Origin: Gracilibacillus salitolerans
GTDB taxonomy: Bacteria > Bacillota > Bacilli > Bacillales > Amphibacillaceae
Reading direction: 5' to 3'
Length of the DNA: 64,000 bases
Assembly (NCBI RefSeq): GCF_009650095.1
Contig: NZ_CP045915.1
Location: 1,736,001-1,800,000, forward strand
In this document: positions 32,767-48,703 of the stretch, one piece after another
How the letters are laid out: every line of letters starts with the position of its first letter
How positions within the stretch are numbered: the stretch's first letter is position 1
Made by a program: the position numbers and the translations under genes
Notes under the pieces: generated by a model
The model's input: only the letters and a program-made list of their open reading frames with translations
The model's database searches: none
Told to the model about the DNA's origin: nothing

Positions 32767-33384
32767 ATGAAAAAATTATGGGAAACTTTGAAAACGATGT
32801 CTTTTAAAGAAGCAGTAGATTATATTTGGGAATACTATAAAATACACATTATTGGAATTGTATTAGGAGTAGCTTTTCTTGTATCTATTTTATCGACAGT
32901 TTTTAAGGAAAAAGAGGAAACTTATGAAGTGATGGTTGTCAGTGAAATACCGTATGAAATTACGGAACAATTCTCCAATGAGGTGAATGAGAACTACTTT
33001 GAAGAATTTCAAGTAGCAGTAAATAATATTACGTCTGGTGGCGGTTCCATTTCAGACTTATCATATGCAGATATACAAAAATTTTGGGCAAATATTGGTG
33101 CTAATATGGTGGATGTCATTGTAACCAATGAAGCGATTGCCGAACAAATGGTGGAACAAGAAGGGATTTTACAAATAGAAGAAGCTGTCGATATGTCATT
33201 ATTGGAAGAAAGTGAAGTAGAGTTATATGATTTTGGAACAGATTCTGTATATGGGATTGATACTAATCAATTGGATGTTTTTGATGATATCGAACTTTTT
33301 CAGGACAAGGTTATAATTATCCCAATCAACTCTGAAAACCATGACAAAACCACGCAATTTTTAGAAACATTATTGCAATCCTAA
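32767..33384 (+). CDS. Single-span membrane protein of unknown function (205 aa)
   Basis: A short cytoplasmic N-terminus (MKKLWETLKTMSFKEAVDYIWEYYKIH) precedes one strong membrane helix (IIGIVLGVAFLVSILSTVF, about 28-46) and an acidic extracytoplasmic domain of about 155 residues. A GSISDLSYADIQKFWANIGANMVDVIVTNEAIAEQ stretch suggests a mixed alpha/beta fold. GGGGGAG precedes the ATG. It lies between the esterase gene and a terminator. I recognise no family. Confidence 0.7.
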   Translation: MKKLWETLKTMSFKEAVDYIWEYYKIHIIGIVLGVAFLVSILSTVFKEKEETYEVMVVSEIPYEITEQFSNEVNENYFEEFQVAVNNITSGGGSISDLSYADIQKFWANIGANMVDVIVTNEAIAEQMVEQEGILQIEEAVDMSLLEESEVELYDFGTDSVYGIDTNQLDVFDDIELFQDKVIIIPINSENHDKTTQFLETLLQS

Positions 33385-33388
33385 CATA

Positions 33389-33420
33389 GAAATCGACAAG
33401 AAAAACTTGTCGATTTCTCA
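33389..33420 (+). terminator. Terminator hairpin
   Basis: GAAATCGACAAG / CTTGTCGATTTC, a 12-bp perfect stem with a 5-base loop and a short T-containing tail, directly after the membrane protein gene. Confidence 0.75.
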
Positions 33421-33537
33421 TTTAAAAGCGAGAAAATTATTAAAATAATACACAAAATCCATTAAACTGCGAAGTAACTTTTGCGAGGATTTGCTTTCTT
33501 CCGTTCTAAATTTTGATGAGATTTGGCATACGCTTCG

Positions 33538-33649
33538 GCAGAATACTGCGCTTTCCGTGGGCTCGGCTTCAGCTAACTTTGTGAAGGAAAACACTTCACA
33601 AAGTGGATCTTCAGCTCTCGCTGTCCCACAGGAGTCTCCGTATTCTGCC
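33538..33649 (+). repeat. Covarying long-hairpin repeat, copy A
   Basis: Outer stem GGCAGAATAC / GTATTCTGCC encloses the conserved CTTTCCGTGGG / CCCACAGGAG arms. Inside these are conserved GCTAACTT and AGTGGATCTTCAGC segments and a terminal stem ACTTTGTGAAG / CTTCACAAAGT. Four related copies occur at 33737, 42458, 42704 and 48446 with different stem sequences. This copy lies in the 33385-34032 gene-free gap. Confidence 0.8.
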
Positions 33650-33736
33650 TACGCTAACTTTAGAGTCCTGATTATTGAAAGTATAGAACTCATGGAACTA
33701 TAATCTTTGGATTTCCTGTCTTTTCAACAGAACACT

Positions 33737-33878
33737 ATGCTAAGCTGCGGAAAAATGCGACACTCCTGGGGGAAGAGCGCGAGCTGAAGATGCACTTGGT
33801 AAAGTGCTTTTCTTTACCAAGTTAGCTGAGGCCGTGCCCCCGGAAAGGGAGTATTTTTCCGCAGCGACGAGTTAGCAT
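33737..33878 (-). repeat. Covarying long-hairpin repeat, copy B (inverted relative to A)
   Basis: Outer stems ATGCTAA / TTAGCAT and GCTGCGGAAAAAT / ATTTTTCCGCAGC (13 bp perfect) enclose the conserved core in reverse orientation. The terminal stem is ACTTGGTAAAG / CTTTACCAAGT. It lies 87 bases from copy A. Downstream at about 33966-34000 a GCGGGTGGG...TTTTTT segment resembles one behind copies C and D. Confidence 0.8.
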
Positions 33879-34032
33879 TCAACTCCAGAAGAATGGAAGA
33901 AAGCCACACTAAACAGAATTTTCATTGGTTCGTATTTTTATCTATTGCGAATCAGATAAATAGTGTGGGGCGGGTGGGTTTTACCTGTTTTTTATAGATG
34001 AATAATTATTATTTGATAGAAGGGTGTTAACA

Positions 34033-42314: not shown

Positions 42315-42457
42315 TATTATAAGGTAGGAAAGTATATAACCGTTGGTATCAAAGCATTTTGGTATCCTATTCACGTTTAAAATGTGTAATAAATAAAGAT
42401 ATAGTTGACTAGTCATGTTGTTTATTATGAAAGGTATCGTGTGCAAGGAAATCGCTT

Positions 42458-42575
42458 CGGCTGCCCGCTTCCCTTTCCGTGGGGTTTTCCCTTCAGCTAA
42501 CTTTTCCAAGCAAAAACCGCTTGGAAAAGTTGATCTTCAGGTAAAACAGTCCCACAGGAGTTGAAGCGGCCGGCC
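42458..42575 (+). repeat. Covarying long-hairpin repeat, copy C
   Basis: The outer stem CCGCTTC / GAAGCGG encloses the shared CTTTCCGTGGG and CCCACAGGAG arms. The inner part has CTTCAGCTAACTT and a terminal stem ACTTTTCCAAGC / GCTTGGAAAAGT. It lies in the 1.1-kb gene-free gap 42286-43399. Confidence 0.8.
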
Positions 42576-42703
42576 TCCGCTATAAAGTTGTTCTACAACG
42601 TTTTTGACCGTTATCTTTTTGAGCTTTCTTAAAGTGGTCACATTTACATTGTGGAATAAAAGTCGTCATGTTACTACTTGCACCCATTGCAGGTCTCTAT
42701 TTA

Positions 42704-42828
42704 GCGTAGGCGTCCACTTCGACTCCAGGGGGATCAGCGTGATCTGAAGATCCACTTTTGCAAAACGATCTTTTTTGCAAAAGTTAGCTGAAGAGCATGC
42801 CCCACGGAAAGCGAAGTGGGCAAGCCGT
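42704..42828 (-). repeat. Covarying long-hairpin repeat, copy D (inverted relative to C)
   Basis: The outer stem CCACTTCG / CGAAGTGG and terminal stem ACTTTTGCAAAA / TTTTGCAAAAGT enclose the conserved core read on the minus strand. Copy C lies 128 bases away. A GGACCGGGTGGGCTTCCCAGTTTTT-like segment follows at about 42943-42970, matching the layout at 33.5-34.0 kb. Confidence 0.8.
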
Positions 42829-43130
42829 AGCGGTTGTTACGCATATTATCCATTTCAAAATTACTAATTTATTCCATAGTTATCAACCATCAGTAGTGAA
42901 CATTATCTTTCTTTTGCACTATCTTTATTTTGGTCAATTAAAAGGACCGGGTGGGCTTCCCAGTTTTTCTTAATAAGCGAGATGTCAGTTCCCGTATATA
43001 GTGTCCTATTTGATGAGGAAGATATATATGGATGGTTAAATAGGACTTAGTCGGCAATTGCTTCATGTATAGTCATTAAGTTGTTACCATGACTTAATGG
43101 TTAATCAGAATCATAATTTTACCGGAGAAG

Positions 43131-48345: not shown

Positions 48346-48445
48346 TCTTTCCATTTAGAAGGTATTGATTGCAAACAAGGCGGATGATGAACGAAATCAT
48401 GTAACCATTTTGAAATGTATTTACTGCTAAACGATCGCTGCGACC

Positions 48446-48551
48446 GACCACTCCGCTTTCCGTGGGCACGGCTGAAGCTAACTTGGTAAAGAAGAGCACT
48501 TTACCAAGTGGATCTTCAGCTCGTGCTCTTCCCACAGGAGTCTCGATGGTC
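48446..48551 (+). repeat. Covarying long-hairpin repeat, copy E (single)
   Basis: The outer stem GACCA / TGGTC, then the shared CTTTCCGTGGG and CCCACAGGAG arms, GGCACG / CGTGC, GCTGAAG / CTTCAGC and terminal stem ACTTGGTAAAG / CTTTACCAAGT form one long hairpin. No inverted partner is present within this gap (48224-48703). Confidence 0.8.
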
Positions 48552-48703
48552 TTGTCTTCTCTATACTTATGCGCTACAACATTTGTTAGAAATAGTAGTT
48601 TGAATGGACTGTTTTCGTATCCCTTTCCTCTAGGTTTTATTTTAGCGATTTAAATGGTATAGGAAAAAACATAGAGTTATTTAGAATCCAATCACTCTTG
48701 TAT

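Follow-up and report, generated by a model that had tools for sequence, protein, structure and literature searches.

A gene-less pair of inverted hairpins in Gracilibacillus salitolerans: one copy of a dispersed, putatively mobile repeat with relatives in an IS1182 subgroup

The window, a stretch of 64,000 nucleotides of Gracilibacillus salitolerans to whose first letter all positions refer, contains a gap without genes between an open reading frame (ORF) that ends at 33384 and another that starts at 34024. At its left side lies a terminator-like hairpin of the upstream gene (GAAATCGACAAG ... CTTGTCGATTTC; 33389..33417, + strand), which was read in the sequence and is present at the orthologous site of relatives, and beyond it a gene-less element of about 0.5 kb. 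The element comprises a left end motif (AAACTGCGAAGTAAC; 33464..33478, +) that is common to many copies and is a candidate terminal inverted repeat; hairpin A (33531..33655, +), with outer stem GGCAGAATAC/GTATTCTGCC located at 33537 and 33640; a spacer without a gene that is conserved among copies (33656..33742); hairpin B (33743..33866, -), with outer stem GCTGCGGAAAAAT/ATTTTTCCGCAGC located at 33744 and 33853; and a right end motif that is a diverged inverted counterpart of the left end (33927..33955, -; right edge approximate). The layout is therefore end, 70 to 90 nt (approximately), hairpin(+), spacer, hairpin(-), another 70 to 90 nt or so, and end, with the inverted, covarying hairpins both within 33531-33866. 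Exact edges were sought through empty sites and not obtained, the flanks being too diverged in the six loci aligned. Elsewhere the window holds hairpin C (42453..42581, +), the left arm of a second pair and of another subtype, hairpin D (42703..42832, -), the right arm of that pair, and the single hairpin E (48436..48557, +). All five were matched by model R1, built from 50 hairpins of the own genome, and by model R2, built only from 38 hairpins borne by insertion sequences (IS); R2 matches them at E values of 2.5e-8 (A; B, 2.1e-7) to 3.4e-5 and nothing else in the window at E<=0.1. A sequence-only reading of this DNA had described A and B as members of a dispersed hairpin family; the strings that it quoted are in place, the model puts A (+) and B (-) in the gene-free gap, and the observation as such is real.

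Hairpins A and B are one copy of a small gene-less repeat dispersed in the host genome. With the whole stretch as query, 86 matches to the own genome were obtained from 40 scored of 118 candidate places, and R1 matched every one of the 150 candidates scored out of 1,318 at first look, so that the genome contains at least 150 such hairpins. Over the stretches fetched around those places, R1 gave 156 matches from 93 sources; the stored alignment, on which the pair counts rest, holds the best 150 of the 156. These 150 hairpins form 56 pairs in the order (+,-) and 38 singles, with no (-,+) neighbours. The spacer measures 80-89 nt in 46 of the 56 pairs and 300-309 nt in one, and no gene lies between the arms of the own-genome pairs. 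By a loose pattern, 42 of the 56 pairs combine one A-type and one B-type arm; A and B therefore represent two standing subtypes, one for each arm of an element, and their difference is not an independent event; the earlier count of five copies as five examples of compensatory change was too high. The other elements, those of C, D and E, bring different outer stems. The stems of A and B had also been said to differ completely, which holds for the outer stems and fails for the terminal stems (ACTTTGTGAAG and ACTTGGTAAAG).

Among the 94 own elements, 72 lie in gaps between genes of the same direction, 18 in convergent gaps and one in a divergent gap, with three unseen on one side, as compared with 20 same-direction, three convergent and four divergent gaps among gaps of 60 bp or more in the window; one of the 94 lies wholly within an ORF. 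A terminator-like hairpin pointing in was found within 40-220 nt of 60 of the 94 elements, versus 54 of 300 random places in the window, a control that includes coding places. No shared gene was found among the ORFs beside 40 copies, where protein families other than the repeat itself join two to five frames; the largest protein cluster (22 frames) was rejected as a shared gene because it overlies the repeat itself. Beyond this species, R1 has matches in 56 or more of 299 Bacilli genomes, with at most 11 candidates scored per genome, and the repeat DNA itself was matched in 34 of 61 genomes, counting the own genome. A phage origin was rejected, as there was no phage match and a single plasmid record. 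The Radiobacillus record L062, although labelled a plasmid, has rsmA, ispE, purR and rnmV next to the repeat and may be part of the chromosome.

The stems covary beyond chance, as the sequence-only reading had maintained. In a test of the 50 own-genome hairpins, on the structure drawn from copy A, 90.2% of cells pair, and both members vary in 17 of the 30 base pairs. The hairpins score 0.255 for covariation, whereas shuffles give 0.103, with none of 500 as high, and slid controls stay at or below 0.080; as many further pair types or more occur in 2 of 500 shuffles. The copies tested are related to each other, and the changes are therefore not independent events. In the IS-borne hairpins both members vary in 16 of the 30 pairs. 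Among 59 hairpins in the loci of other genomes, 52 have an outer stem, 42 of these stems being distinct, and 513 of their 555 pairs are Watson-Crick, a proportion biased upwards because the finder takes the best helix.

Comparison with relatives indicates turnover at fixed sites. Three relatives were searched with the flanks of 12 own elements, giving 36 site-genome combinations, of which 33 were fetched and three were split between contigs. A hairpin is present at 15 of the 33 orthologous sites at E<=0.001 and at 18 of the 33 at E<=0.01; from copy number, as an expectation without a control, a random gap would be filled in a few percent of cases. At least eight of the 15, read by eye, carry an arm of an outer-stem subtype unlike that of the own copy. 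Because whole arms of another subtype stand at orthologous sites, some of the covariation reflects the swapping of entire hairpins. At one site (L018) the junctions seem to fall at the same place in four genomes, so that the insertion there looks old and the arms look to have changed afterwards; at another (L006), genome G008 has kept the outer ends and has its middle filled by another repeat. The orthologue of the window's own site contains half an element in G016, its stem being GGCAAGATAC/GTATCTTGCC and its terminal stem a different one, a pair in G010 whose stems are different, another repeat instead in G014 and G008, and no element in G001, G011 and G012; the downstream gene is non-adjacent at this site in G008, G010, G001, G011 and G012. 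In G014 and G008 the orthologous gap is filled by another dispersed palindromic repeat, of the GCGGACATCTGTTCCG type (L079, reverse complement of 2200-2700; L081; L229), which in G008 also takes up the middle of L006. A repeat within a repeat was observed in G016, four of whose hairpins (L080, L239, L228 and L249) have a common extra stretch, inserted after CTTTC in L080 and L239.

Related hairpins accompany the transposase genes of certain insertion sequences. Genome G341 has four remnants of an IS1182 transposase gene, flanked by a hairpin(+) and a hairpin(-). When the first 67 residues of one remnant served as query, 196 relatives turned up in named genomes, and the 80 best were used. Upstream sequence is available for 75 loci, and in 64 of these an R1 hairpin(+) ends 18-97 bp upstream of the transposase match (E<=0.05), a proportion that describes one subgroup, since the query was picked for copies with hairpins and the loci are the best 80 of 196. 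These hairpin-bearing loci belong to Sporosarcina, Lederbergia, Bacillus, Lysinibacillus, Psychrobacillus, Peribacillus and Robertmurraya. A hairpin(-) follows within 2,300 nt downstream in 22 of the 80 loci, and both hairpins are present in 15 (E<=0.05); several of the 11 loci without an upstream R1 match show hairpin remnants on reading. Both of the two intact proteins tested are IS1182 transposases (NCBIfam NF033551: 463.6 and 476.3 bits; cut-off 270). The IS-derived model R2, besides matching A to E, has 69 hits over 39 loci in the own genome. The window hairpins are shown by these matches, which run in both directions, to be homologous to the IS-borne hairpins, with the same inverted order. 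Two inverted hairpins stand 295 to 1,763 nt apart in 20 IS loci, and about 1,440 nt apart in two with an intact gene; the shortened distances approach the length of the own-genome spacer.

Regular association with the hairpins was found for this one subgroup only. Among IS1182 loci drawn more widely, only 4 of 60 have any hairpin, against a rough background of 2 of 16 at Y1-transposase loci, and IS1182 in general is thus not supported as the driver. Two loci considered as hairpin-ended insertion sequences, L119 (G015) and L190 (G527), were also rejected, as reading showed an IS1182 of another type inserted into the hairpin; the hairpins can therefore also serve as targets, and such insertions fit hairpins as mere targets. 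In G222, a hairpin lies between the terminator and the transposase gene in two IS1182 copies (L214 and L215), and a third copy (L216) is without it.

In B. massiliglaciei, copies of the subgroup's IS terminate in TCAGACTGTAGACAAA and its counterpart. The left end was found in 64 of the 80 loci; a hairpin lies directly outside it in 55 of the 64, versus 100 of 2,000 random places. Both ends were found in 41 loci, of which 34 have at least 12 nt of flank in common and seven have less than 12 nt; about 20 of the 34 flanks are 19-32 nt long and mostly a complete stem-loop. The IS subgroup is thus shown to land at terminator-like stem-loops and to duplicate its target. The end motif of the own elements does not match TCAGACTGTAGACAAA, and as an exact pattern it was found in none of 10 IS1182 loci of the own genus and in 1 of 140 other IS1182 loci. 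Target duplication was not detected for the 94 own elements, whose flank repeats are as in shuffles, and no intact IS1182 gene was found in the own genome, which yielded a single fragment and no match to PF13751.

On balance, the window element is probably a non-autonomous, MITE-like mobile repeat that has its hairpins and their inverted order in common with the IS1182 subgroup, and its occurrence where terminators lie favours this reading. In the IS, the transposase gene stands where the own element has its spacer; the window element may have arisen from such an IS by loss of the transposase gene and may have spread in trans through an IS1182-type transposase. The hairpins would act as DNA structures whose stems stay paired via exchange of whole hairpins among copies, and via repair of the palindrome arm against arm or selection as DNA. 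Confidence is held to a modest level by the own genome's lack of an intact IS1182 gene among the matches, the non-matching ends, the lack of target duplication, the choice of the query by its hairpins, the low frequency in the wide IS1182 sample and the IS1182 copies within hairpins. A wider proposition is put forward tentatively and has less in its favour: a lineage of DDE transposons might carry and target DNA stem-loops, its transposase reading shape and a few fixed loop letters while the stem letters drift and pairing is maintained, and its non-autonomous hairpins might fill the 3' ends of Bacilli genes, swap arm by arm between sites, and underlie orphan intergenic hairpins and small RNA (sRNA) annotations such as tsr24.

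It is rather unlikely that the hairpins are an independent family moved by some other activity, a copy of which was picked up by one IS1182 lineage in its leader. The wide occurrence of the hairpins in Bacilli would suit such a family, as it includes genomes without an IS1182 match (G016, G160 and G315), and so would the irregular presence of the hairpin in the other IS1182 type of G222 and the fact that the ends of the IS lie about 90 bp outside the hairpins; however, an independent family would leave unexplained the near-constant position and orientation of the hairpin relative to the transposase gene across genera, and the 15 loci with an inverted second hairpin, as in free pairs.

Less probable still, and in our judgement unlikely, is that the hairpins are functional RNAs (sRNAs, cis-acting elements, or IS leaders that control the transposase gene) maintained by selection acting on their transcripts. 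The loop letters are fixed, the covariation is strong, the hairpin of the IS sits shortly before the transposase gene, and both halves of the element give a sub-threshold match to Rfam tsr24 (24.9 and 24.4 bits; gathering score 50); on the other hand, one element has hairpins in both orientations and arms turn over at fixed sites. Pairing as RNA is expected to leave an excess of G-T mismatches, unlike what is found in the own outer stems and in the own terminal stems of one loop class, where G-T and A-C occur at near-equal frequency. This count, on 146 distinct own-genome hairpins, took in only 145 outer stems and, for a single loop class, 70 terminal stems; the 2,361 pairs comprise 2,262 Watson-Crick, 29 G-T, 36 A-C and 34 others. 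Outer stems from 50 own and 59 other hairpins, counted earlier, showed 9 G-T and 21 A-C. By helix, G-T and A-C number 6 and 36 in the own outer stems, 3 and 6 in the own inner helix (plus one column pair that is T-G in all 50), and 30 and 23 in the own terminal stems, those of the first loop class giving 6 and 12. The 38 IS-borne hairpins have 2 G-T and 7 A-C in the outer stem; their inner helices, besides one fixed T-G pair, have 50 G-T and 3 A-C, counts that few columns carry and that come from a structure made by RNAalifold, which allows or favours G-U. The outer stems thus speak against RNA and the inner helices of the IS-borne hairpins do not, and with this G-T bias, which favours RNA pairing in those helices, an RNA role is conceivable. 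Selection on the folded form, or its regeneration by mobility, had been proposed earlier for RNA or single-stranded DNA alike; the link to mobility is upheld, and the folded form may be RNA or DNA.

That the element is a REPIN-like pair mobilised by a Y1 (RAYT) transposase is very improbable, for although it has the layout and many intergenic copies of REPINs, a Y1 match was found in 0 of 8 scored candidates in the own genome and its arms are about 125 nt, not 20-40.

These results point to a likely origin of the large hairpins that are abundant between genes in Bacilli, and kinship with the hairpins of terminator-targeting transposons suggests a source of intergenic hairpins in the Bacillus group. 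They also warn that strong covariation alone is no proof of a functional RNA.

Among known systems, MITEs are short, gene-less and present in many copies, with inverted ends and a relationship to a transposase-coding element. The window element resembles them in its shortness, absence of genes, many copies, candidate inverted ends and transposase-coding relative, and differs in its large internal hairpins, in ends unlike those of the IS found, and in the absence of target duplication in the own genome. REPINs, or REP sequences with RAYT, consist of two inverted hairpins and a spacer in intergenic DNA, as does the window element, whose hairpins are much longer and in whose genome no Y1 transposase was found among the scored candidates. 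At Rfam gathering thresholds no family matches the window or the loci of 12 relatives; RF02577 (tsr24, an sRNA of S. aureus) has conserved strings and stems in the same order, with scores for A and B about half of its gathering score, and IS hairpins of three of six loci also match it below that score. Literature searches with the repeat's sequence strings, with subscription papers and ISfinder outside their scope, gave no related-looking paper by titles, and those for tsr24 nothing related by titles and abstract starts. REP sequences are 20-40 nt long in the part of the source drawn on here (PMC3733652). Bhal-1 of B. halodurans and Sta-1 of S. aureus, of 74 and 105 bp, are likewise repeated stem-loop families, a likeness by description only in the portion of the source cited (PMC2267715). 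In the sections cited (PMC5678879; PMC4923244), IS1272 and TnSha1 of the IS1182 family target stem-loops, several of which are transcription terminators, and part or all of the target stem-loop is lost without target duplication. As far as those sections go, the hairpin-bearing IS is like them in its transposase family (NF033551) and stem-loop targets, and unlike them in duplicating its target (34 of 41 loci) and in carrying homologues of the window's hairpins; a related IS that duplicates the stem-loop on which it lands, contrary to the behaviour described for IS1272, opens structure-directed targeting by this transposase family to testing.
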